This document shows positions 86-12,595 of a stretch of 64,000 bases of DNA, piece by piece (within the stretch, counting starts at the first letter, position 1; every line of letters starts with the position of its first letter). The notes beneath the pieces were generated by a model. That model saw only the letters and a program-made list of their open reading frames with translations. It searched no databases and was not told the DNA's origin. A program made the translations under genes and the position numbers. The DNA is taken from positions 248,001 to 312,000 of the forward strand of contig JAHHIA010000003.1 in NCBI GenBank assembly GCA_019359045.1. The letters are read 5' to 3'. The stretch is from Scytolyngbya sp. HA4215-MV1. GTDB lineage: Bacteria; Cyanobacteriota; Cyanobacteriia; Leptolyngbyales; Leptolyngbyaceae.

Positions 86-472
86 CTAATCTTGTACGTA
101 CTCTTGCCCATTCAACAAGGCAATCTCTGCGCGAACAAATTCTCGCCCCAAATAAGCAGCGTGGTCAAGCCGAGTCACCAGGCAAGAAGCGTTTTGCTCG
201 AAGATGCCAATGCAAAGTTCTTTAGCGGTTCTACCCGTAAAGAGGCTACTGTGGGGGCGCTCTAGGGTGCCATTGCAGGAAAAGGGCTCACCCGTCTCCG
301 GATCACAAGCTAAGCCACGATCGTTGATGACATTGGTGTAATGCTTGGCGCAAATCATTCCGGCTTCTCGGTTCAAGTAAATGATGAAATAGCCACCCGG
401 GTCCAGTTCAATGAATCGCTGGGAAAGCTTGTCATCCAATACCGTTGCGATTTCAACCAAGGAGTTGTTCAT
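86..472 (-). CDS. DUF4346 domain protein
   Basis: Small soluble cyanobacterial protein that I match to the DUF4346 family from memory; its function is not known to me. With the start chosen here it is 128 residues. Visible family-like segments are FIELDPGGYFIIYL near the N-terminus, DPETGEPF in the middle, and FTGRTAKELC followed by LDHAAYLGREFVRAE and the C-terminal end GQEYVQD. The frame is open up to 520 with a GTG at 520 and an ATG at 505, but the family usually begins shortly before the LSQRxIELDP segment, so ATG at 472 is preferred. No clear Shine-Dalgarno precedes any of the three. The gene sits 3' of pyrB on the same strand with about 90 bp between them, so co-transcription is possible. 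Confidence 0.82.
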   Translation of the reverse strand: MNNSLVEIATVLDDKLSQRFIELDPGGYFIIYLNREAGMICAKHYTNVINDRGLACDPETGEPFSCNGTLERPHSSLFTGRTAKELCIGIFEQNASCLVTRLDHAAYLGREFVRAEIALLNGQEYVQD

Positions 473-502
473 GGTGGGTGAAAGTCTGTGTAGTCCCTCA
501 TA

Positions 503-535
503 CATTTTAGGAGACGTCACCCATTTTAGGAGACG
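503..535. repeat. 14-bp direct repeat between DUF4346 gene and pyrB
   Basis: CATTTTAGGAGACG occurs at 503-516 and again at 522-535, a centre-to-centre distance of 19 bp. It lies just upstream of the preferred DUF4346 start (472). It could be a slipped duplication or a pair of binding sites; nothing else in the window repeats it. Confidence 0.6.
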
Positions 536-561
536 CGACTGTTGGAAGAGGGTTACTGGAC

Positions 562-1644
562 TTATACTTTACTGCTTCCCATCAGGTATAACAGTGCCAT
601 TCTTACGGCAACGCCACTGGTTACCTGTTGGGAAATCAAACTAAAGTTTGGATCATCCATCAAATCAGAGCTAATTTCGACCCCACGATTGACGGGTCCG
701 GGATGCAAAACTTTGACCTCTGGGTGGCAAAGCTGCAAGCGATCGCGGGTAATGCCAAACTGTTGATGGTATTCTCTCAAGCTGGGTAACAAATGGCTGG
801 TCATCCGCTCCTTTTGGAGCCGCAACGTCATGACAAAGTCAGCATTTTTGAGGGCTGGTTCCAGATCCCAATGCAAGAAAAGTCGGCGGGGTAACAAGGT
901 GGAAGCGGTGGGGTTAGTGAGCATATGAGGCGATCCCAATTCTGGATTGTGACGCTTCAGCTCAGATGGCTGACTACTCGCGGTAGACTCTTGCACAAAC
1001 TCAGCGAACAACTTTGGTAATAGGGTGGGTGGTCCAGCGAGATGAACCTCCGCACCACTGGCAGTGAGACTCCAAATATTGGAACGAGCAACCCGTGAAT
1101 GCAAAATATCCCCGACGATCGCAATCTTTTTGTCTTTCAGTACGGATAGCGAAGGATATTCTGAATCGATCAGCGTACAGATAGTGAAAAGGTCAAGCAA
1201 TGCCTGCGAAGGATGCTCATGCTGTCCGTCACCTGCGTTGAGCACACCCACCCTAACTCCCAGGCGATCCATTTCCTGCGCGATCGCTTGGGGAACTCCT
1301 GCCTCGCGGTGACGAATCACCATCATGTCGGTGCCCATTGCCAAATAGGTTTTGGCAGTATCCAGAATCGTCTCTCCCTTGCTGAGGGAAGAGGTTCCCG
1401 GTGCAAAATTCAACGTATCTGCCGATAGCCTCTTGGCTGCCAGTTCAAAACTGCTCCGAGTGCGCGTCGAAGGTTCAAAAAATAGATTGGCAACAACCTG
1501 TCCCTGCAATGCAGGGACTTTTTTTGTGCGCCGCGACAGAACCTCCCGGAAACTGTTTGCCGTTTGCAAAACGGTGTCGTACTCCAGCGGTGTAAAGTCT
1601 GACAAGGAAAGAATGTGACGACGGTTCCAGGTACTAGTAACCAT
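562..1644 (-). CDS. pyrB: Aspartate carbamoyltransferase
   Basis: Catalytic chain of aspartate transcarbamylase, which condenses carbamoyl phosphate with aspartate in the first committed step of pyrimidine synthesis in the cytoplasm. The carbamoyl phosphate loop STRTRSS is at about residues 59-65, the [10 protein letters not shown] segment lies mid-protein, and [11 protein letters not shown] is near the C-terminus. ATG at 1644 gives the family-like beginning [14 protein letters not shown]; an upstream in-frame start at 1722 would add 26 residues without family character. Between LLPKLFAEF and [11 protein letters not shown] there are about 35 extra polar residues compared with the compact bacterial enzyme. 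The other pyrimidine gene here, pyrE, is 60 kb away, so there is no pyr operon in view. Confidence 0.95.
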
Positions 1645-1906
1645 GCCAAAGGATACAAAAGGAACGCCTTCAGCGTACATGAATTGCTCTGTCACAAGCG
1701 ACAGATTATTTTCAGGCTGCATAGAATGTCCAGATGGTTTGGAGGTAGATGGTTACTCCTTCCAAGCCAATTGATCTGCTGTCAGGACTTTATGCAGAAT
1801 CTATAGCGGTCTTAAACAATTTGTGAGGTTTGGGTACGAAATGAGCATGAAGGAGTGAAGGAGGAAAGATCACCCCCAGACTACTGATTTCTAGACGACT
1901 AATTTT

Positions 1907-4900
1907 CTAAAATGCCTCTTCACTGGCCTCATCTTTGGTATTGGTGCGCCGTCGAGGGGTTTCGCGCGTGAATTTCATATGGATCTCGCGGGTTTGTTCA
2001 CCGTCCACGGCAACTGCCATGATGGGGAAGTCCAAGAGTCCATCCTGGAAAGACATCTGGAAACGGAAAGTGCCATCGGGATTGAGTCTAATAGGTTGTC
2101 CTGCGATCGTGACAGTGGCATCGGGTTCGGTCGCGCCGTAAATAATCAATTCGGAATCGGCAACTAGCCAGAATTTGCGAGCACGAATCGACGGGAACGA
2201 AGCAGAAAAACCAACGCCTGACATATTGATGCCCGACATCGTTAACCCAGAGAAAGTGGGGACTGCACCCATACCTACACCGGACGGGAAGACAAAGGAA
2301 CTAATCGATGGGATCATTTGAGCAGAACCGGGAACCTGATGCATAGAGCCAAACAGAGAGCCAGCGACTCGTTGGGCTTCGGCAGATTCTGCCATCCCAA
2401 AGATGCGATCGTAGATGGGGCTGTCTCCGGTGGGACGCTGGGCAGGTGGAACCAGGGTCATGAAGGTCTTACCCCGTAATTCTTCGTCCCAGGAAAGGGT
2501 AACAAACTGGTCATCGAACCAATCTGAGGGATAAACCGGGGGAATGCGAATTGGGTTGGAGCGTGCCAGCATCAACCAGCGCCCTTCGGGAGTGAGGTAG
2601 CCGATTTCTGCAATGTAGTCGCGATCGCTCACTGGCATGGGCAAATACCAATCGCGTGCCAGTTCGTCGCAGTCGTACTCTTGCAAACTATGGGGAGCTT
2701 GTTGAGCAATCTCAATATCAGTGACATCGTAAATTCGCAGAGCAAGGCGTTGTCCGCCTTGTCGCCGCAGTTCTTCACGATGTTCGTTAGGTACATCCCA
2801 GTAGGCATATGCCCAACGCGGATCGCGAGGCAACAGGGTAATACGACTTTCGCCATACCCAGAGGGCAGATCGGCTAAGCCCGCATCGACGGAAGCTAGA
2901 GATTCGCTAGTGAGGTTGGTTTGCCCAACATCAAATTTTGTTGCTTCAACGGAAGATTGATCGTCGTTTTTGCCTGAAAATGCAGTTACAGCAGCGGTGC
3001 CAGCGATCGCGGCGACAGTCGCCATCTCTCCCAGGGAAGGGGGGGTGAGACTCGGCATGGCTGGCGTGGAATCGGCGTCAACCGTATCCGCTTGCTCAGT
3101 TGTCAGAGCAGAGGCTACCCGAATATGTTCGGAACGAGCGAGTGCCAACCAGCGTCCATCGGGTGTCGCGTAGCCGATCTCTGCTAAATAGTCACGATCG
3201 CTCGCTGGAATCGGCACGGTCCGATTCCAGGCACTTTCCTCAACGTCAAAGGTCTCGACGTTGTGAGCGGGGGTGGTGTTGAGGTCGATGTCTGTGACAT
3301 CGTAGATTTTCAGCGCCAGATTAGACCCCCCTTGGCTAATCACTTCTGCTTTATGGTCGTTGGGTGTATCCCACTCGGCATACGCCAGGTGAGAATCGCG
3401 AGGAGTCAAGGTAATTGTGCTCTTGCGACCTGCGCCAGCGATGCCAATGGCGGCGGCCGTGGCGGCGATCGCTCCTCCTGCCAAAGCGGTGCCTGCCGCT
3501 CCAGCTGCATCAATCGCCCCAATCGCGTCAGCGGTAGAGGGTGCTTTGCTTGCTTCAGGGGCGATCGGGGTGATTGGGACAGGCGCAACGGTGGGTTCCT
3601 CAGCAGGGGGCATCGGTGGAACTAGACTCCCAACTCCAGACAGACCCGGTTGTGCCAAATCTGGTTTCTGCCGACTTTTGAGCCACCAACCAAGCAACAA
3701 TGCCAGCAATGCCAAGGGGAGCAACCACCACCACCACGGCAGTCCGGCTTTGCTAGCCAGGGGGTGTCCATTGAGGTCGAAAGACGCAACTCGGTTGTCT
3801 TGTCCGGTGGCATTGATGCTCTTGCCATCAGCAGCAAAGGCAACGGCACTTAGAGGTGCTCCGAGCGTAAAGGCTGCCCCCAAGGGTTTACCATCCAGGT
3901 CAAAATATTGGAGTGTGCCGTCGGCTCCACCCGCAACGATCGTTTTACTGTCGGGACTAAAGGCTAAGGCTGCGATAGGAACCCCGAGCTTGAACGCTGC
4001 ACCAATCGGTTTGCCAGCGGTATCCAAATATTGCAGTGTGCCATCTTTGCTGCCCGTGATAGTGACTGCCCCGTCGGGACTCTTGGCTGAAAGACTGGCG
4101 TCTGCGATCGGTGGAATCGTGCTCGTTGCCTTGGCACTAGGAGACGTGCTGGGGGTTGGGGGAACTGGAGCCTGAGCGATCGCCGCTGGGGTCGTAGCAT
4201 CTGCTTTACGGGCGGTTTCGATCGCTGCCTGATTTTCTGGCGCAGTGGCGTAGGCAAGAAACGCCTGAAGTGCAGGGGGGAGAGTGGCAGCTTTTTTGTA
4301 AACGTAGACCAGTGGCTGGGAAAAAGGGTATGCGGGGTTATTGGGCAAGGTCTTGTGCATCTGGAGCACCCTTGCCTGACTGCCAGAAACTTGAAAGACT
4401 TGATCGGCGATCGCATAGCTGATACCGTCTGTTCCCAGGGCTTGAATCACTGCCTCAGTAGTATCTTCCGCTACTTTGACCGTGTTGGCTCCCGTCGCAA
4501 AGGTTGCACGTTTGAAGACGGGATAACTTTGAAATGCCTGACGAGTGTCGCTGGTTTCAGGGCGATCGATGAATCGAATTTTGCCCGGTTTCCCTCCCAC
4601 CTGAGACCAATCCGTAATTTCTCCTCGGAAGATTTGGGCGAACTGTTTGTCAGTCAGGCTACCCTGAAAAGGGTTATTTGCGCTCACAATCATCGCAATT
4701 TTGTGGCGAGCGATGACAACTTGCTCCAGCCCTTGTGCCTTTTCTGCATCGGTTAAAGGACGCCCCAAGGCTGCCAATTCAATTTTGTCATCGGACAAAG
4801 CTTGCAGCGCCTGTGCCGAACCAAGATAACGGGAGGGTAATTCAACGGTTGTGCCTGAAAACTTTTCTTCAAAGCGTTGCTTTAGTATCTGGTTGATTTT

Positions 4901-5095
4901 GGTCAAGCTATTAGAGCCATTGACTCGTACCTTAGAATCTTTGGGTACGACATCTGGCAGCTTGAAAGGACTTGCGCTGGGAGACTGGGCGAAGGCTGGA
5001 TCAAGCGCCAAAAAACCTGCCTGTAATTTAGGAGCAGTGACCAGAGCGAGTAATAACGCCAGACTCAGTACCGAAACATCTTTTTTTTGCAACAT
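1907..5095 (-). CDS. Fused phosphate-binding-like, propeller-repeat, DUF4912 membrane protein
   Basis: A 1062-residue protein. Residues 1-37 look like a signal peptide ending near AFAQS. Residues about 50-290 resemble the PstS-type periplasmic substrate-binding fold (VNGSNSLTKINQILKQRFE, then IFRGEITDWSQVGG and DGISYAIADQ). Residues about 330-450 hold three similar repeats of the form DGTLQYxDxxGKPxGAAF, like WD40 or NHL propeller blades but too few for a whole propeller. A Trp/Leu-rich membrane segment follows at about 453-472. The rest should be cytoplasmic: an Ala/Gly/Pro-rich linker, then two DUF4912-type domains starting near residues 557 and 750, each with a LxPRDxxxAYAxWDxPNxH core. 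The reading is a one-pass receptor or scaffold joining periplasmic ligand binding to DUF4912. Transport is unlikely, as no pst permease or ATPase genes are near. It is monocistronic. Confidence 0.85.
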   Translation of the reverse strand: MLQKKDVSVLSLALLLALVTAPKLQAGFLALDPAFAQSPSASPFKLPDVVPKDSKVRVNGSNSLTKINQILKQRFEEKFSGTTVELPSRYLGSAQALQALSDDKIELAALGRPLTDAEKAQGLEQVVIARHKIAMIVSANNPFQGSLTDKQFAQIFRGEITDWSQVGGKPGKIRFIDRPETSDTRQAFQSYPVFKRATFATGANTVKVAEDTTEAVIQALGTDGISYAIADQVFQVSGSQARVLQMHKTLPNNPAYPFSQPLVYVYKKAATLPPALQAFLAYATAPENQAAIETARKADATTPAAIAQAPVPPTPSTSPSAKATSTIPPIADASLSAKSPDGAVTITGSKDGTLQYLDTAGKPIGAAFKLGVPIAALAFSPDSKTIVAGGADGTLQYFDLDGKPLGAAFTLGAPLSAVAFAADGKSINATGQDNRVASFDLNGHPLASKAGLPWWWWLLPLALLALLLGWWLKSRQKPDLAQPGLSGVGSLVPPMPPAEEPTVAPVPITPIAPEASKAPSTADAIGAIDAAGAAGTALAGGAIAATAAAIGIAGAGRKSTITLTPRDSHLAYAEWDTPNDHKAEVISQGGSNLALKIYDVTDIDLNTTPAHNVETFDVEESAWNRTVPIPASDRDYLAEIGYATPDGRWLALARSEHIRVASALTTEQADTVDADSTPAMPSLTPPSLGEMATVAAIAGTAAVTAFSGKNDDQSSVEATKFDVGQTNLTSESLASVDAGLADLPSGYGESRITLLPRDPRWAYAYWDVPNEHREELRRQGGQRLALRIYDVTDIEIAQQAPHSLQEYDCDELARDWYLPMPVSDRDYIAEIGYLTPEGRWLMLARSNPIRIPPVYPSDWFDDQFVTLSWDEELRGKTFMTLVPPAQRPTGDSPIYDRIFGMAESAEAQRVAGSLFGSMHQVPGSAQMIPSISSFVFPSGVGMGAVPTFSGLTMSGINMSGVGFSASFPSIRARKFWLVADSELIIYGATEPDATVTIAGQPIRLNPDGTFRFQMSFQDGLLDFPIMAVAVDGEQTREIHMKFTRETPRRRTNTKDEASEEAF

Positions 5096-5526
5096 TTTCG
5101 TTTAAACCAGCTTAACAAGTCTCAACAGAGGTTAACTTTTGCAACGACGTGCCAATTATACCGTCCTCTCTCTCTTGGTAAAGATGGGCAGCAAAACAAA
5201 TTTATGCTGAGACGGGAATGCCTATCAATTGGGCTTGCCGCTGATCGTACCTTGTGGGGGCGCTTTCTCGGAGCTGGTAGAATAAAATGCAAAATTTGGG
5301 GCTAAGGCATCTAGCCTCATCCCCGATCTCAGTCCTCAATGATGTGTGCGGTTAAGAGGCTATGTGAGAAAAAATGCTGCAAGAATGTCTGCTCACCCTC
5401 CCAGGCGGATCACGACGTAACAAAGGTGATCCATTTTTGCAACTACCATCACGCTGCCTGGATGTGCACGATGCCTTTCCTGAGCAAATTCAAACCATCA
5501 TTTCAAACTGCGATTTCAAACTGTAG
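5096..5526. promoter_or_regulatory. Intergenic region with upstream sequence of the PstS/DUF4912 gene
   Basis: 431 bp without a convincing gene. Within 45 bp of the 5095 start, the minus strand carries GTTAACCT (5129-5136) followed by weaker TTAA-containing units at 9-11 bp intervals, reminiscent of a cyanobacterial Pho (SphR) box but poorly conserved after the first unit. A 63-codon plus-strand frame at 5339-5530 has no coding character. Nothing else stands out. Confidence 0.3.
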
Positions 5527-6099
5527 TTAGAACCTTAGCCCGACTCCTGCCTGAACAGAAGTGGCTGTGCTGCCATCTTTATAGGCGTCGAAGGCAATAA
5601 TGGCATTGCCAAAAATGACTAACTCGCTATTAGGGAGGGCAACGTCAATGCCTGGCTGCAGGGCAAAGGCGACGTCATCTCCGACAGGCGTTGTGTCGTT
5701 GCCGATGGGAAAGGATGCACCCGCTCCCAGATAAATATCGGTTTGCCAATTGAGGGGGAGATCATACGAAACGGTGGGAACGATCGCTACCCCATTCCCG
5801 ATCAACACTTGGGTTCTGGCTGAAACTGGCAACCGCAAAAACTTGTAGCGAGCGGCGACCACGCCTGCCAATTCATGGTCATTATCAGGGCCATCGGATA
5901 CTTCATAGGATGCGCCCACGCCTACGTAACTGCCATAGGCGGCTTGTGCAGAAGCGCTCGTTTGGGTGGCGAGTGTGAGGGCACTGGTTGCGACCATGGT
6001 TCCCAATGCAATGGCAATCCCTGTTCGACTCTGCGCCATGCAACGATCGGACTGTTTCTGACCCTGCGTATTCATCATTCGACGCACGAACTGCTTCAT
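5527..6099 (-). CDS. Probable outer-membrane beta-barrel protein
   Basis: 190 residues. The N-terminus is basic, followed by a hydrophobic stretch and ASAQA, which looks like a signal peptidase site near residue 52. The remainder alternates polar and apolar residues in beta-strand fashion (YGSYVGVGASYEV, TDIYLGAGASF) and ends in GVGLRF; a terminal Phe after an alternating strand is the usual BAM recognition signature of outer-membrane barrels. The size suggests an 8-strand barrel of the OmpA/OmpW class, but no specific family is recognised. GAGGAG about 9 nt before the ATG supports the 6099 start. It is transcribed alone. Confidence 0.72.
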   Translation of the reverse strand: MKQFVRRMMNTQGQKQSDRCMAQSRTGIAIALGTMVATSALTLATQTSASAQAAYGSYVGVGASYEVSDGPDNDHELAGVVAARYKFLRLPVSARTQVLIGNGVAIVPTVSYDLPLNWQTDIYLGAGASFPIGNDTTPVGDDVAFALQPGIDVALPNSELVIFGNAIIAFDAYKDGSTATSVQAGVGLRF

Positions 6100-6536
6100 A
6101 CCATTGCTCCTCGCAACTGAGTGGGTGGAATTTTGAAGAGTGTAATCTAATTTAGCTTATTTTTAATCCATTCATTTCATTCAAGCAAATGATGGAGAAA
6201 ATGAGCAAAATTCGGGTTCTAATTCATTTTATAGGTATCCATCTGTAGGGGATGAAGCATCGGAGTAATGATTGATCAAGGGGGCTTGAAATCTTGCTTC
6301 TGAATACTTTACCTGGATAGCGAATGGGCAAAATCTAAATTTGCTGAAATGAGATTGAACATTCGATACAGGTTGCGATTCAGTCTTAAGAAAATGCATC
6401 AATTTTTGGGGACGAAAACCCGGTGAGAAACCTTTAGGATATTTTTGTCAGTTTCTTATCACGCAATTTTTGAGTCCGCTGGCGAATGAGAGTATGCTGA
6501 CGAATAAGCCTCATATCAGTTCCATCTACTTTTCCT
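6100..6536. promoter_or_regulatory. Divergent intergenic region, AT-rich
   Basis: 437 bp between the beta-barrel gene (minus) and the TPR gene (plus). It is AT-rich relative to its neighbours and must hold both promoters, but I could not single out boxes or a conserved operator. No ORF in it is convincing. Confidence 0.4.
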
Positions 6537-8429
6537 ATGACTGAGACTTTGCCGCTGCGCGATCGCTATCTTGGACTCATTGACGAGATTGTGCAAATGA
6601 CCTTAAAGGGCAAGATTCGTTCTAAAGAACAGGTCTACCAAATGCTGCTCAAAGGGATTGAATCGGGCACAGGAGAGGTCTTTGAGCATTGTTTGGGTGA
6701 CCAGATGGTGGCAACCCAGCGGCAGATCGAGATTCAAACGGATGAATTTAAGTTGGCGAAATCGAACCGAATTTTTCGGGCGTTGCAAACAATTCAGGGA
6801 GAGTGGCAACGGTGGCAAGCCCAAAATCAGTCGGATGAGGTGATTGCGATCGCCTTGGAACAAATTATTCTGGCGGATTCGTCGCTGCGCTTATCAGCTT
6901 TTTTGCGGGCGATTGACCCAAACCATCCCCATTCTCTAAACCTGGATGAATTGAAGCTGGCATGGCGATCTCTGGCTCGTTTTGCTGAGCGACGGGCAGA
7001 ACCCGAACTCAAAGTCGAATTGCTGAAAATTTCAGCAGGAATTGATGGGGGGTTGCAGTCCTGGGAACGGGTACAGGAATATCTGGTGAGTTGGATTTAT
7101 GACCAGAGCCAGGGACAAATTGGATTTTCTGGCACACCGGAGCAGCAGGGTCCTTGGGCATTGTGGGCGAAGCATTCGATTCATCCCCTGCCCCAATCGT
7201 TGTTTAAGGCACTCTCACTCGGGCAGCCGCCGAGCGAGTTTATTGCGACCTATGGCGCGATCGACTTGAGTGCCTGGGTGGAACTGGCAATTCTTTTACA
7301 GTTTTTGCAGAGAGGCTTGGTTTCCTGGTTTGACAAACTGGTGTACGACTCCAAGGTTGGCTCCAAACTCTCCATTTCTGCCTTTCTGGAATTTGCAATT
7401 CTCTGGTCCCAATTGGCGAATGGCTTCGATCGTGCCACGCTGCTAACGACTGAACAGAGAAGCCGATTTGCCAGTGGTGCGTTTCAAATTACGATCCAAA
7501 TCTTACGCACGTTTGCTCAACGGGATTATTTCCCACTCTATGGCGGCATTTTTGCTTCATTTTCGCCTAGCTACACACGCGATGCCTTGCTCTATCTGGA
7601 CGAACCCCTGCGGCAAGTGGAAGGGACGCAAGGCAAAGCGCGCATTTTGACGCTACTCGCTTTTTCGTTGCGAGTTCATGGACAGTACGATCGCGCCAAT
7701 CAATTGCATCAAGAAGCGCTGGAGATTGCTCGTGCAGGCAACGATCGCGTGTGCGAAAGCGCCAATCTCAACCACCTCAGTCGCAACTGTGCAGCTCAAA
7801 AGCACTATGCAGAAGCGGTGAACTACAGTCAACGGGCTTTGATTTTGAGTCGGCAGGTGGGCGATCGTTTGGGTGAGGCAAATGCTCTGGTCAATGTAGG
7901 CTATAGCGAAGTATTGCTGGCGCAACAGCGAGAGGAAGGCGACCCAGCAGTTTACGAGTCAGCGATTAACTACTTGCAGCAAGGATTGAAGTTGTCGGAA
8001 CGATTGGGCGATCGCCAAAGTCAAGCGCTCTGTTTCAGCAGTCTCGGCATCGCCCATATTTTGCTGGATCAACCCCAGGCAGCGATCGCCTATCTGGAAG
8101 GGGGTATCCAGGCAGCCCAGTTTTCTGGCGACCTTTACCTCAAAGGACTCAGTCTGGTTTACCTAGCGGAAGCCTATTATCGGCTACAAGATCTCCACAA
8201 AGCTGTTTGGACGGGCGGTTTAGGGATGTATCTGCTCGAACAAATTGCTGCCAGAGAATGGCGACAGGCTGCTGGGTTGCTCACGATCCTGCAAGGGCAG
8301 ATGGGGGATGCTAAGTTTCAAGCAGTTCTTCAGCAAAATCGCTCCCAAATCGTTGCGGTGATTGGTGTCGATGGTTACGACCACTTGCCAGAGTTACTGA
8401 CGCAGTATCGTCAGGAGGGGAATGTTTGA
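6537..8429 (+). CDS. Tetratricopeptide repeat protein
   Basis: 630-residue cytoplasmic protein with no signal peptide or membrane segment. The N-terminal 350 residues are helical and unlike any named domain (starting TETLPLRDRYLGLIDEIVQM). From about residue 370 to 560 there are TPR motifs: repeated 34-residue helix pairs such as GQYDRANQLHQEALEIARAG, YAEAVNYSQRALILSRQVGDRLGEANAL and QPQAAIAYLEGGIQAAQ. TPR arrays bind partner proteins; no effector domain is present and the partner is unknown. The gene has its own AT-rich upstream region and no co-directional neighbour closer than about 120 bp. Confidence 0.82.
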   Translation: MTETLPLRDRYLGLIDEIVQMTLKGKIRSKEQVYQMLLKGIESGTGEVFEHCLGDQMVATQRQIEIQTDEFKLAKSNRIFRALQTIQGEWQRWQAQNQSDEVIAIALEQIILADSSLRLSAFLRAIDPNHPHSLNLDELKLAWRSLARFAERRAEPELKVELLKISAGIDGGLQSWERVQEYLVSWIYDQSQGQIGFSGTPEQQGPWALWAKHSIHPLPQSLFKALSLGQPPSEFIATYGAIDLSAWVELAILLQFLQRGLVSWFDKLVYDSKVGSKLSISAFLEFAILWSQLANGFDRATLLTTEQRSRFASGAFQITIQILRTFAQRDYFPLYGGIFASFSPSYTRDALLYLDEPLRQVEGTQGKARILTLLAFSLRVHGQYDRANQLHQEALEIARAGNDRVCESANLNHLSRNCAAQKHYAEAVNYSQRALILSRQVGDRLGEANALVNVGYSEVLLAQQREEGDPAVYESAINYLQQGLKLSERLGDRQSQALCFSSLGIAHILLDQPQAAIAYLEGGIQAAQFSGDLYLKGLSLVYLAEAYYRLQDLHKAVWTGGLGMYLLEQIAAREWRQAAGLLTILQGQMGDAKFQAVLQQNRSQIVAVIGVDGYDHLPELLTQYRQEGNV

Positions 8430-8547
8430 AGGGAGCGTGCCAGTCTATAAACAGGAACATTCCTGCCTATAAACCATCTAGTAACTTGGGATACTAAAGC
8501 TATCAACCACTCTATCCACAATCATCACCAAGTGAGGGGTGAGATTC

Positions 8548-8961
8548 ATGAACGCAATGCGCTGGTCTATTGTTCCAACGATCGTTGCAACGGTGCTGGC
8601 AACTGCTGGTGTCAGTTGGAGCCAGTCGTTTGCAAGTGTGTCGGCGAATTCGGCAGCTGTGCCGTTGGCGGGTAAATCGCTGACACTCAACAGTTGTACG
8701 GAAAATGTGCCGAGTACGCCCAGTCACGTCGTGAAAGTGACGGAAGATAGCAACCTTCGTTTCACTGTCCAAAGTCAGGGAGGACAACCCACTCTCTTGA
8801 TTCGGAGTGAGGCAGGGAAGAAGTTTTGCGTACAGGCAAATGAGTTCTCTGAGGGACGGGTGGAGATTCCTGGGCGATGGGGCATGGGAAGTTACTCGAT
8901 TTATGTGGGCGATCGCGCTCAACAATCGATTCCCTATAACCTGACGATTGCGGGTAATTAA
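8548..8961 (+). CDS. Small secreted protein of unknown function
   Basis: Preproprotein of 137 residues. A signal peptide (NAMRWSIVPTIVATVLATAGVSWSQSFA) ends near residue 30. The mature part has two Cys (SLTLNSCTE and GKKFCVQ) that could form one disulfide, and a GRWGMGSYSIYVGDR segment resembling the short beta-sandwich secreted proteins of cyanobacteria. ATG at 8548 with GAGG at 8534-8537 upstream is preferred over an in-frame GTG at 8539, which lies inside the ribosome-binding sequence. Its stop overlaps the stop of the convergent HD gene. Confidence 0.72.
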   Translation: MNAMRWSIVPTIVATVLATAGVSWSQSFASVSANSAAVPLAGKSLTLNSCTENVPSTPSHVVKVTEDSNLRFTVQSQGGQPTLLIRSEAGKKFCVQANEFSEGRVEIPGRWGMGSYSIYVGDRAQQSIPYNLTIAGN

Positions 8962-9533
8962 ACGTCGGTTTGAACGATCGCGGCTAATTCCGAAACGACT
9001 CGATCTAGCTCATCAATCAGCGGGATCGAGTCGTTTTGGCGAAAGGCTTGTACGAGCGATCGGTAATACCACAGAGTGCCAGCTTTGCCGCCTTTGAATC
9101 GCTCCCAAACGGCTTCTCCCAGGACTCGATAATCGCTGAGAATGGAGCGGGCGTTGTGCAGTTTATCGCAGGCAGACACCAGGCGCACAGAGGCGGATGC
9201 GGTCGGCAAGTGATCTAAATAAGCTTGTTTGCGTTCTTGCCAGGGGGGCTTGGGGGTGCGGTCGGTGTCGGTGCAGCCATCGACGATCGCAACCACGGTT
9301 TCACCAAAATGTTGCCGAATTGCTTCACGGGTTGCGGCTCCGCCCTGGTCTTCGACTGCATCGTGGAGGAGCGCGGCGATCGCTTCGTCTTCGGTGGCTC
9401 CATGTTCGAGTGCCAAACTGGTCACTGCGAGCAGATGCGCAATATAAGGAATAGGGGTGCCTTTACGGGTTTGCTGCGCATGTAGTTGGGTGGCAAAGGT
9501 GAGGGCAGCAGTGAAGCGATCGGAAAGTACCAT
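8958..9533 (-). CDS. HD-domain phosphohydrolase
   Basis: 191 residues, a single HD domain of the RelA/SpoT hydrolase-like type. The metal-binding positions are visible: His in PYIAHLL, the HD pair in ALLHDAVED, and the later Asp in SACDKLHNAR. The family hydrolyses phosphate from nucleotides; with no synthetase or TGS domain this would be a stand-alone hydrolase, possibly acting on (p)ppGpp or another nucleotide, but the substrate is inferred. The gene is convergent with the small secreted protein: the palindrome TTAA at 8958-8961 supplies both stop codons. Confidence 0.87.
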   Translation of the reverse strand: MVLSDRFTAALTFATQLHAQQTRKGTPIPYIAHLLAVTSLALEHGATEDEAIAALLHDAVEDQGGAATREAIRQHFGETVVAIVDGCTDTDRTPKPPWQERKQAYLDHLPTASASVRLVSACDKLHNARSILSDYRVLGEAVWERFKGGKAGTLWYYRSLVQAFRQNDSIPLIDELDRVVSELAAIVQTDV

Positions 9534-9615
9534 TTTGGATTTTCAAAGGGTAAGTGTGAGTCTACCTTTCTATGATCTCTGATCATCACCCTGCATTGCT
9601 TCCCATTCTAAAATC

Positions 9616-9696
9616 GGCGTTGCTTAGCAACGGGATGAAGATGATGCTGAATGATTTGAAACTTCGTTCCAAATCATCCTGCTTTTCAGCAACGCC
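9616..9696. repeat. MITE-like interspersed repeat (GGCGTTGCT ends)
   Basis: Element bounded by GGCGTTGCT (9616-9624) and its exact complement AGCAACGCC (9688-9696), with an inner pair ATGATTTG (9651-9658) and CAAATCAT (9670-9677), so the whole 81 nt can fold into one branched hairpin. A shorter relative with the same ends and GGGATGAA core lies at 17228-17261. GGCGTTGCTGAAT-type palindromes recur in cyanobacterial intergenic DNA. Confidence 0.7.
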
Positions 9697-9809
9697 CTAA
9701 AATCTGCAATCCCGAATCAGCTGGATCTCTGCGTTCACTCTCAATGATCCCTCCTGCTGGAAACATAATCGTGGGCACTCAGCCTAGCCAGTCAACCAAT
9801 CAATTCCCC

Positions 9810-11051
9810 TCACGCTTCCGCCATTGCTTGACCTGCTAACCAGCCCGTAGTCCAGGCGCTTTGGAAATTGAACCCCCCGGTCACGCCATCAATATCCAAG
9901 ATTTCCCCAGCAAAGTAGAGACCCGGACACAATCGGCTTTCCATCGTTTTGAAATCTACTTCTTTGAGATCCACACCCCCACAGGTGACAAATTCCTCCT
10001 TGAATACTCCTTTGCCCTGAATAGTGAATTTCCCTTGGGTGAGTTCTTGCAGCAGTGCATTTAGGGTTTTGTTGGAGAGATCTGCCCAGCGATCACCCTC
10101 GCCAATCCCAACAGACACAATCAACTTTTGCCAGAGGCGACGGGGCAGCGGCAACGGACAGTGGGCAACGATCGTCCGTTTAGGAAATTCTCCTTTAGTC
10201 GCCAGTAGCTTTTCTCGCAACTGTGCCGCATTGAATTGGGGCAACCAGTGAATCAGTAGAGTTGCCTGATAGTGGCTGTCGTGCAGCCCTCTGGCACCCC
10301 AGGCAGAGAGTTTGAGCACCGCCGGACCACTCAAGCCCCAATGAGTAATGAGCAGGGGACCTGTTTGTTCCAGCTTGGGCACATGGTCAGCGAGGAGTTG
10401 CAAACGAGCCGATGGGACGGAAACTCCTGCCATGTCTTGCAAGCGAGGATCGGTGACGTTGAAGGTGAAAAGGGAAGGTACAGGGGGCACGATCGTATGC
10501 CCCAAAGTTTTGGCAAACTGAATCCCCTGGAGACTACTGCCCGTTGCCAACAACACTCGATCGCCCTGCAACACTTCACCCGATCTCAGGTGAATTTGGT
10601 AGGTTCCAGACTGCGGCACGATCGCCACCACGGCCGATCGGGTTTGCAGCACCACTCCAGCATTATGAGCGGCGTGGAGTAAACAATCCACGATCGTGGC
10701 AGAGTCATCGGTGATGGGAAACATCCGCCCATCGGCTTCGGTCTTCAGCTTCACGCCCTGGGCTGCAAACCAATTTACCGTATCGCGTGGTTGAAAACGG
10801 CTAAAAGCACCGCGCAACGCCTTTCCCCCTCTGGGATAATTTTGTACCAACAGGGCTGGCTCAAAGCAATGGTGCGTCACATTGCAACGTCCCCCCCCGG
10901 AAATGCGAACTTTGGCGAGGGGGGAATGGGCAGCTTCCAACAAGGTGACATGCGCGTTGGGTTCAGCTGTGGCACAGGCGATCGCGCCAAAAAATCCGGC
11001 AGCTCCCCCCCCAATGACGACCCCATGCGTCTGGGGTTTTGGTCTAGACAT
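9810..11051 (-). CDS. HI0933-family FAD-dependent oxidoreductase
   Basis: 413-residue flavoprotein of the HI0933/YhiN/BaiN type. The FAD dinucleotide fold is at the N-terminus (VVIGGGAAGFFGAIACA, residues about 11-27), followed by the family segment KVRISGGGRCNVTHH. The C-terminus has ITHWGLSGPAVL in the middle and FAGEILDIDGVTGGFNFQSAW before the end, which positions the second FAD contact. Members are soluble flavoproteins; the physiological substrate is unsettled for most of them. Start ATG at 11051 is followed directly by the nucleotide-binding strand. The membrane HEAT gene ends only 35 bp upstream on the same strand, so the two may be co-transcribed. Confidence 0.92.
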   Translation of the reverse strand: MSRPKPQTHGVVIGGGAAGFFGAIACATAEPNAHVTLLEAAHSPLAKVRISGGGRCNVTHHCFEPALLVQNYPRGGKALRGAFSRFQPRDTVNWFAAQGVKLKTEADGRMFPITDDSATIVDCLLHAAHNAGVVLQTRSAVVAIVPQSGTYQIHLRSGEVLQGDRVLLATGSSLQGIQFAKTLGHTIVPPVPSLFTFNVTDPRLQDMAGVSVPSARLQLLADHVPKLEQTGPLLITHWGLSGPAVLKLSAWGARGLHDSHYQATLLIHWLPQFNAAQLREKLLATKGEFPKRTIVAHCPLPLPRRLWQKLIVSVGIGEGDRWADLSNKTLNALLQELTQGKFTIQGKGVFKEEFVTCGGVDLKEVDFKTMESRLCPGLYFAGEILDIDGVTGGFNFQSAWTTGWLAGQAMAEA

Positions 11052-11086
11052 GCACCCTTACCATCCCAAATCGTCCGTCTACTGGC

Positions 11087-12595
11087 TTACAACTCGCCCC
11101 ATCGAATCTTAGGCTGAATGTCGGTGGAACGCACTACTTTATAGCCATTTGCAGTTGCCCAATCTTCGGCTGCTTTTTCCAGCGTAGGTTCGCCACAGTT
11201 GAGATAGGCAAGTGCCAAGATCTTATCGCCCTTACTTTTCAACAAATCGACCAGCGTCGGGACGATTTCGCGATTACCCAGACTCATGAATGCATACAGC
11301 CCATATTCAATTTTACGGGAGTCGCCAGACTCGACATCTTTGAGCAAAATCTGGCGAGTGAGCGACCAGTTTTTACGTAGATCCTCGCCTTTGCGGAGGG
11401 CGATCGATTGGTGCACTCTGTCTGCATCCGACTGGGGATTCCACTTCAAAGTTGCCAATGCTTTGCCCACCTGAGCACTCAGATCCCAATCGGTCAGATT
11501 TGCCACCAGAGGTTTGACGGCACGCGGGTTCCCCAGTTTCTCCAAGACTTCAATGGCATGGCTGCGAGCACTGGTATCCAGATCTTGCAACACGCCGATG
11601 ACCGGATCGACCGCAGGTTCGCCCAGGCTGATCAGTGCTGCTTTGGCGATCTCATCGCCTTGCTTGAGTCCAGGTAATAGTTGATCAACAATCTTGGGAT
11701 CTTTTGCGGCGAGTTGCTTGAGTGCTTTGCCCGCACTCTCTTTGACGCCGCTGTCTTTGTCCTTCATGCTATTGATTAGCGGTTGGGCGGCGCGTTCATC
11801 GCCCAGCGTGCCCAGCGCAATGGCAGCACTCTGTCGCAAAATCGGTTTGGGGGCCGTTTTCAGCGTGTCGATTAAAGGTTCAACCGCTTGTTTGTCGCCC
11901 AACTTGCCCAGCAATTCTGCTACGTAGGACGATCGATAATCTTTTTCTTCTAGTATGGTGATTAAACCTTTGACATCTTTCTTGGACGCCATCTGGGCAA
12001 CTTGCGGATCTTGCGTCACCAACTGTTTCAGCGCGTCTTTAGATTTTTGCTGAATTGTGGGGTCGGGATCGCTCAAGGTGTCGGTGAGGGTAGATACCGT
12101 ACGAGGATCGGGGAGGTTCCCCAATGCCGCGATCGCACTCTGCCGCAACTCCGGATGGGTAGAAGTCTTTACCGTTGCCACCAGGGGCTCGATCGCTTTT
12201 TTGTCGCCAATGTTGCCGAGAGCCTCCGCAGCCAAAGGAGACTCGTCATTCTGTTTTTTCAGAATCGTCACGAGTTCCGGAATGTTTTTCTTGACTTCTA
12301 GTTGGGCAATTTTGCGTTTTGCTGTCGCGAGGCTTTCTTCCGGCGTGACCACGATATAGGAACCAATCAGGATTAGTGCCAGCCAGGTGATGGCTTTCAC
12401 CGCAGCTTTTTCGAGCCAGGGAAGCTTTTGGGTGACGAGAGACTCGGTTGGAGGCAGAACGGTAGCGATCGCTGCCAAAAAGAACAGAATAGGAATAATC
12501 TGCCCCTGGGAACCCAAAATGTTAATCACACTGAGTCCCACAAGTGCCCATTTTGCAAATTTACAGAAGGGTTTCATAAGCGGATTGCAGGTCAA
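11087..12595 (-). CDS. Membrane-anchored HEAT-repeat protein
   Basis: 502 residues. Two or three N-terminal hydrophobic segments (residues about 14-45 and 65-85) anchor it in a membrane. From about residue 90 to 400 there are HEAT/PBS-lyase-type repeats of about 31 residues with the recurring pattern GDKxAxxPLxxxLK and LRQSAAxALGxLGD. Such repeats form an alpha-solenoid for protein binding; in cyanobacteria similar repeats also occur in phycobilin lyases, but the membrane anchor argues against a lyase here. The C-terminal 90 residues (ending PKIRWGEL) are not recognised. Two starts are possible, 12595 and ATG at 12577; neither has a strong ribosome-binding site. Confidence 0.82.
   Translation of the reverse strand: MTCNPLMKPFCKFAKWALVGLSVINILGSQGQIIPILFFLAAIATVLPPTESLVTQKLPWLEKAAVKAITWLALILIGSYIVVTPEESLATAKRKIAQLEVKKNIPELVTILKKQNDESPLAAEALGNIGDKKAIEPLVATVKTSTHPELRQSAIAALGNLPDPRTVSTLTDTLSDPDPTIQQKSKDALKQLVTQDPQVAQMASKKDVKGLITILEEKDYRSSYVAELLGKLGDKQAVEPLIDTLKTAPKPILRQSAAIALGTLGDERAAQPLINSMKDKDSGVKESAGKALKQLAAKDPKIVDQLLPGLKQGDEIAKAALISLGEPAVDPVIGVLQDLDTSARSHAIEVLEKLGNPRAVKPLVANLTDWDLSAQVGKALATLKWNPQSDADRVHQSIALRKGEDLRKNWSLTRQILLKDVESGDSRKIEYGLYAFMSLGNREIVPTLVDLLKSKGDKILALAYLNCGEPTLEKAAEDWATANGYKVVRSTDIQPKIRWGEL

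Follow-up and report, generated by a model that had tools for sequence, protein, structure and literature searches.

A PstS-like domain fused to DUF4912 in a cyanobacterial membrane protein and its possible link to glycogen metabolism

A single gene of the cyanobacterium Scytolyngbya sp. HA4215-MV1 joins a PstS-like periplasmic binding (PBP) domain, a Trp-rich putative membrane span and two copies of DUF4912 in one chain. The gene lies in a stretch of 64,000 nucleotides (contig JAHHIA010000003.1, positions 248,001 to 312,000), referred to here as the window. It occupies the minus strand from 1907 to 5095, an open reading frame (ORF) with an ATG start and a product of 1062 residues. We read the product as a type I membrane protein that may link the periplasm to alpha-glucan (glycogen) metabolism as a receptor or a tether, a tentative reading that stands slightly below an even chance. 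An earlier description made from the letters of the window alone (the initial annotation) had expected the fusion to give a clue to DUF4912, and it does: swapped-domain relatives, operons and shared gene loss suggest that DUF4912 works in alpha-glucan metabolism. For the window gene itself we infer this link from soluble DUF4912 proteins and tail-less receptors, and likewise its cellular topology, ligand, direct glucan or enzyme binding, and signaling.

The open-licence literature searched names DUF4912 just as a table entry. A sample of 194 genomes of the phylum gave DUF4912 matches in 103, of which 102 exceed the cut-off. The domain is near-universal in the window's class, with 88 of 89 genomes, one of the 88 holding a broken remnant (G396), and is found in 15 of 105 genomes of other classes; 41 of 42 genomes sampled from the window's order have it. 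A role in glycogen metabolism could be tested directly in common laboratory strains, and a receptor tying a periplasmic binding domain to glycogen would, if true, be a new way to match carbon storage to the surroundings.

Architecture and spread of the fusion

The order along the chain is signal peptide, PBP, three blades, membrane span, DUF4912, DUF4912 and tail, and Pfam and the structure models confirm the one-chain architecture of the initial annotation (PstS-like domain, three blades, Trp-rich span and two DUF4912 domains). All coordinates of the gene refer to the minus strand. The signal peptide (residues 1–37, nt 4985–5095) is presumably cleaved after AFA, judging from the sequence, and the AQ at this place is conserved in the order alignment. 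PBP_like_2 (PF12849) covers residues 54–287 (nt 4235–4936) with E 9.3e-32. DUF4912 (PF16258) matches two stretches with E 4.7e-73 and 243.4 bits against a Pfam gathering score of 29.4. The best stretch is copy 2, residues 747–862 (nt 2510–2857), predicted to be a FnIII/Ig-like sandwich, and copy 1 covers about residues 558–669 (nt 3089–3424); a search of the organism's own genome places the two copies at the same nucleotides. A conserved beta tail, residues 970–1062 (nt 1910–2188), ends the protein beyond the domains named initially, and is also present in a soluble Rho_N-DUF4912 paralogue. Between DUF4912 and the tail (about nt 2190–2330) there are Gly/Met/Ser repeats of the MSGVG type, which form long arrays in two other loci (L042, L053).

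AlphaFold2 models, with mean pLDDT of 86.0 for residues 45–452 and 69.2 for residues 715–1062 (DUF4912 itself mostly >90), display a periplasmic-binding fold, the strands of the blades, and a DUF4912 domain that is all-beta apart from one helix. Another small beta domain forms the C-terminus. No kinase, cyclase, EAL or methyl-accepting (MCP) output domain, and no Rho_N, is among the Pfam families of the protein at E up to 1.

The PBP domains of 28 proteins were used as queries against the named genomes, and the best 80 of 369 candidates encoding a relative were taken as the locus set. In 74 of the 80 cyanobacterial loci one ORF encodes a PBP domain and one to seven DUF4912 domains; therefore, the window fusion is no one-off. 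In the remaining six, the parts are in separate ORFs (L078, L110), the locus runs off the contig (L134, L135), or a PBP and span come without a DUF4912 match (L130, L145). The loci span Leptolyngbyaceae, Oculatellaceae, Nostocaceae, Calotrichaceae, Hapalosiphonaceae, Pleurocapsales and others. In the PBP-span protein of L145 (nt 3–2816), DUF4912 gives way to long repeated segments that look helical, and an orthologue in G029 (L053, nt 6184–8490) has signal peptide, Trp-rich span, DUF4912 and tail and no PBP domain. No plasmid copy of DUF4912 was found by tblastn with a 127-residue query.

DUF4912 and the branching enzyme

Gene order outside the window's class places DUF4912 beside a glycogen enzyme. 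We sampled 11 DUF4912 loci from 10 of the 15 DUF4912-positive genomes outside the class. In nine of the 11, the gene directly 3′ of DUF4912 encodes a GH57 1,4-alpha-glucan branching enzyme in the same orientation, overlapping DUF4912 or at most about 200 bases away; the exceptions are L184, which ends at the DUF4912 gene, and L189, which has no GH57. Four of the nine enzymes were scanned in Pfam and carry PF03065 and PF09210, and the other five are 63–82% identical (tblastn) to one of these.

The two genes also appear to be lost together. The C-terminal domain of the branching enzyme (BE_C) is present in 188 of the 194 phylum genomes, including all 103 with a DUF4912 match (G396 has fragments of both). 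Among the 89 class genomes, only G154, where both are absent, and G396, where both are broken, are without intact DUF4912 and branching enzyme. The remnants in G396 lie far apart, DUF4912 at C1:689815–690041 and the enzyme, with two stops, at C1:2222246–2222401. Congeners keep both genes (G423 and G392 for G396; G287 and G432 for G154), and the control matches, RpoB and a GlgA-type GT5, were present in all eight genomes checked. Coincident loss in the same two of 89 would happen once in 3916 if independent, a figure from simple arithmetic that ignores relatedness. A tie between phosphorylase presence and DUF4912 was considered and rejected, as phosphorylase does not follow the DUF4912 losses in the eight genomes compared.

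The bridge from these soluble proteins to the window gene is a 413-residue paralogue in the same genome (L065). Its residues 61–410 align with window residues 709–1060 at 582 bits, and therefore the findings on soluble DUF4912 plausibly apply to copy 2 and the tail of the receptor. The paralogue shares the second DUF4912 and tail region with the window protein, but has Rho_N where the window protein has signal peptide, PBP and span. The third DUF4912 protein of the genome (L066, nt 5122–9225) has a single DUF4912 in a long chain of 1367 residues and adjoins a 648-residue gene without a Pfam match.

Sister proteins with a phosphorylase output

In locus L121 the gene ahead of the PBP-DUF4912 gene (nt 1455–6110) encodes a PBP domain, a span and a carbohydrate phosphorylase (PF00343, E 1.5e-286). 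Searching 291 class genomes with this phosphorylase part, followed by inspection of the loci, revealed PBP-span-phosphorylase fusions in at least 13 (L121; L160, nt 6236–11089; L161–L172). The fusion in L168 is split over two ORFs, and additional fusions in L152 and L174 are cut by contig ends. The lysine that binds pyridoxal phosphate (PLP), which we take to be K680 of the rabbit enzyme, is replaced in all 13 fusions, by I in nine, M in three and A in one, and is also missing in L152 and L174. It is kept (NMK) in all six free-standing full-length phosphorylase relatives aligned. The PBP-fused phosphorylases are candidate pseudoenzymes, and without the PLP lysine each is a candidate pseudoenzyme sensor; nothing on such a pseudoenzyme was found in the open-licence literature on phosphorylase and PstS.

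Six of the 13 fusion loci (G209, G215, G239, G064, G003, G002) have a PBP-DUF4912 gene in the same orientation at a distance of 466–1328 bases; L171 (G192) was left out of this judgment because a contig end is close to its start. In all six, an ORF of 131–151 residues from one family stands between the two genes. Copies of this family lie at L172 7776–8171, L160 11156–11551, L166 3252–3647, L167 7606–8001, L168 10756–11181, L170 4181–4636 and L138 6243–6653, the last preceding a PBP-DUF4912 gene; they are 55–83% identical to the first member, and two members scanned have no Pfam match.

In L173 (G012) the order on one strand is a free PBP, PBP-DUF4912, a 2-hydroxyacid dehydrogenase and an intact GlgP. 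In a quick tree with midpoint root, the phosphorylase-type PBPs and this free PBP group in a single branch (99% SH-aLRT) that lies within the PBP-DUF4912 rows, and the deeper forks nesting the phosphorylase branch reach 82–88%. It thus looks as if one receptor can bear either DUF4912 or phosphorylase as its output. The two kinds of protein share a related PBP and a hydrophobic span and often stand as near neighbors (L160, L172 and others), but where the one kind has DUF4912 as output, the sisters have a carbohydrate phosphorylase that lacks the PLP lysine.

Fold and pocket of the periplasmic domain

The initial annotation took residues 50–290 for a substrate-binding fold, and the structure comparison agrees with the Pfam match in supporting it. 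In VIA-align the first structure for the PBP part is 9l8j (Sll0540 of Synechocystis), with Z 27.8, a root mean square deviation (rmsd) of 3.1, 238 aligned residues and 39% identity, and the PstS family 2 structures 4gd5 (phosphate-bound) and 4q8r follow with Z 23.5 and 23.1. The fold and length are the same in these proteins. Compared as a solved chain, Sll0540 has S-G-T in the ligand loop, while the fusions have S-D-T or S-E-T, a membrane span and DUF4912. In the literature, Sll0540 is variously called a PstS homologue, sphX-like, or a potential Pi-binding protein, the fourth of its kind (PMC3610870, PMC11221513, PMC3564720, PMC5053081). A search of the open-licence literature by title words found no paper on the 9l8j structure.

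The window protein does not reach the curated PstS models TIGR02136 and TIGR00975 (91.6 bits vs 206.6, and 18.7 vs 205). The SGT loop, a D56-like acid and two arginines are presumably the phosphate contacts of PstS (E. coli numbering). In the window protein, E106, R112 and R178 match the acid and the two arginines, and the full phosphate site is not there, as the loop motif R178..S182-D183-T184 (nt 4544–4564) has an acidic residue in place of the Gly.

We counted the pocket over 126 PBP rows, partial domains and identical segments being dropped and L020/L040 and L026/L039 each being counted twice. The SGT Gly position is Asp or Glu in 104/104 DUF4912-fusion rows and 12/12 phosphorylase-fusion rows; in nine rows with neither output domain it is Asp in eight and Gly in one, and the row of Sll0540 has Gly. 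The D56-like position is Glu in the window protein and Asp in most rows, and phosphate-bound 4gd5 also has Glu there by alignment. R112 is kept in 126/126 rows and R178 in 114/126, and this wide retention of both arginines argues for retained anion binding, which is likely for the domain as judged from the pocket residues. The proposal that the protein senses a phosphate-like ligand is weakened, because the SGT loop has become SDT or SET in 116/116 fusion rows and the scores fall short of the curated PstS models; PstS-like phosphate binding is doubtful.

Membrane span and blades

The Trp-rich 21-mer at residues 454–474 (nt 3674–3736) is the most hydrophobic segment of the chain on a home-made scale, which was used for all hydrophobicity results here and agrees with its initial reading as a membrane span. 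A segment with at least two Trp residues lies between the PBP and the first DUF4912 in 109/109 distinct PBP+DUF4912 ORFs when no score limit is set, and it is not always among the three most hydrophobic segments of its protein (e.g., L079). The 12 residues flanking the span hold on average 1.75 Lys/Arg after it vs 0.77 before it; 67 ORFs have more after, 21 are equal and 21 reversed. The N-terminal signal peptide and the Lys/Arg bias of the span therefore predict the PBP outside and DUF4912 inside. The window protein is accordingly a predicted single-span type I protein with periplasmic PBP and cytosolic DUF4912, a receptor-like layout that supports the initial annotation and is conserved over many cyanobacterial families. 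As a candidate second span, we considered Ala/Gly-rich segments beside DUF4912, which approach the score of the Trp-rich span; they are present in 66/109 ORFs at a tighter limit and lacking in 10/109 at a loose limit. In view of this lack and of the Lys/Arg bias of the Trp-rich span, we took them provisionally as soluble linkers.

The three WD40-like blades (residues 337–452, nt 3740–4087) were identified by Pfam, structure comparison and a blade search. Their pairwise identities are 0.56, 0.44 and 0.24. The WD40 match (PF00400, E 4.6e-07) has 30.5 bits against a gathering score of 27, so the repeats described initially are real; they are also incidental. Of all ORFs searched, L113 is the one besides the window protein with blades between PBP and span (a match in L177 is a separate WD40 ORF), and the blades were rejected as a sensor core for this reason. 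A closed WD40 propeller needs about seven blades, and the three present do not close a ring within one chain. They match 6r5z, a three-blade fragment, with VIA Z 16.5, rmsd 2.3 and 118 aligned residues. Judging from the title of 6r5z, which speaks of three-blade fragments assembling into a nine-blade ring, the blades of the window protein could close by oligomerizing. A scan with anti-phage models gave a single weak match, HEAT-ARM_XIII (E 0.00019), over the blade region.

A possible mechanism and comparable systems

The PstS-type domain outside would bind some small ligand. This may be an oxyanion, although the domain probably handles it differently from PstS. The ligand would close the PBP, and a conformational change or clustering would pass through the Trp-rich span, which may carry the signal or serve simply as an anchor; trimerization of the blades as in 6r5z could provide the clustering. 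At the inner face the FnIII-like DUF4912 domains would bind glycogen or its enzyme (branching enzyme or phosphorylase), and glycogen, or its breakdown by phosphate, would thereby be brought to the membrane or adjusted there. The phosphorylase of the sister proteins, lacking the usual means of holding PLP, would act as a reader of glucan or phosphate. A broader proposal, possible but on the whole unlikely, is an undescribed family of cyanobacterial transenvelope receptors coupling a periplasmic ligand to glycogen turnover, whose interchangeable outputs would be DUF4912, as a FnIII-like glucan or branching-enzyme module, and a silenced phosphorylase, as a glucan or phosphate reader.

Receptors that contain a PBP in one chain have precedents. 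BvgS and other PBP-fused sensor kinases combine a periplasmic binding domain, a span and a cytosolic output in one chain, whereas the window protein has no kinase, cyclase or methyl-accepting domain in Pfam. The open-licence literature searched, including the topics of glycogen granules and of GH57, operons and Rho, yielded nothing on a DUF4912 output, its glycogen link or the pseudo-phosphorylase sisters. Stbd1, a mammalian membrane glycogen-binding protein, is likened here in concept, the shared idea being glycogen tethered to a membrane. When Synechocystis is phosphate-limited (0.3% Pi), the abundance of one of its glycogen phosphorylases, Sll1356, reportedly rises 2.0-fold (PMC3600050); this rise fits a glycogen link and is no proof of one.

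Weighing the explanations

Several observations weigh against a role in glycogen metabolism. The operon and shared-loss evidence concerns the soluble DUF4912 protein, not the receptor, and the phosphorylase neighbors belong to receptor paralogues without the tail. Tandem duplication alone could account for the closeness of the two PBP genes. A phosphorylase lies within the flanks (up to 7 kb) in just one of the 80 named loci (L121), and the neighbors of the window gene are pyrB and a barrel protein, with no glycogen gene. The branching enzyme does not stand beside DUF4912 in the genomes compared of the window's order and class (C14 vs C5 in the window genome, G000). It occurs without DUF4912 in 85 genomes outside the class and in G004 (82% complete), and G021 (99% complete) has DUF4912 without the enzyme. 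G154 is a draft of about 220 contigs, where the double absence could be a gap, and its phosphorylase is as in the congeners. The DUF4912 model matches FnIII domains with VIA Z 9.8 and below (best Foldseek E 1.2e-04), and as the FnIII sandwich is a common fold, the match tells little on function. Last, the Rho_N domain of the soluble DUF4912 protein hints at nucleic acid.

Carbohydrate binding was sought in the fold and the sequence. The rows shown for the DUF4912 fold search hold FnIII domains and no carbohydrate-binding structure. No carbohydrate-binding module (CBM) family matches the window protein in Pfam, the sole near-match being Glucodextran_B over the tail (E 0.12), and sequence comparison of the tail gives a glucodextranase match at E 1.4.

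The protein might instead be an envelope scaffold, in which a PBP without useful ligand binding has a docking role and the blades, long low-complexity linkers and FnIII-like repeats form a structural tether. The change of the pocket Gly to Asp or Glu in all fusion rows aligned, the variable linkers, the varying number of DUF4912 copies (1–7), and the retention of signal peptide, Trp-rich span, DUF4912 and tail in the G029 orthologue without PBP speak for this, but the kept pocket arginines argue for anion binding, and we consider a pure scaffold improbable.

Slightly less probable again is a transcription- or RNA-linked receptor, in which DUF4912 would be a protein-protein or nucleic-acid module and the PBP fusion would relay a periplasmic signal to gene expression. 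Rho_N is a frequent partner of DUF4912, and the soluble paralogue that aligns with the receptor has it (L065, E 1e-11; also L182, E 2.7e-06; none in L181 at E up to 1e-05). However, the receptor itself has no Rho_N match, and the partner of DUF4912 in operons and in shared loss is the branching enzyme.

It is very unlikely that the protein serves the Pst transporter as a membrane-anchored accessory that binds phosphate, DUF4912 being a passenger. The PstS fold and the likeness to Sll0540, a PstS homologue or Pi-binding protein in the papers cited above, are outweighed by the unreached PstS models, the altered SGT loop, the lack of a Pst permease or ATPase in the scanned neighbors and the constant association with a cytosolic module.

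Surroundings of the window gene

The initial annotation noted no pst genes near and a weak Pho-box-like repeat ahead of the start. The first point holds for the permease and ATPase of Pst, none of which is among the neighbors scanned (within the window, up to 16 kb), but not for binding proteins, as described below. The repeat was not borne out: when up to 3 mismatches to a Pho-box consensus are allowed, nt 5096–5526 contain no match, and the whole window has 44 matches vs 32.7 expected.

Elsewhere in the locus set, a small protein is encoded near the PBP-DUF4912 gene in 23 of the 80 loci (e.g., L112, nt 9288–9992), as the next same-strand ORF in 19; one member scanned has a DUF937 match below the cut-off. 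A separate PBP_like_2 gene of 367 residues lies about 8.3 kb from the window gene, outside the window (L067, nt 466–3663). Its protein has an N-terminal hydrophobic stretch, and a PAS histidine kinase gene comes next.

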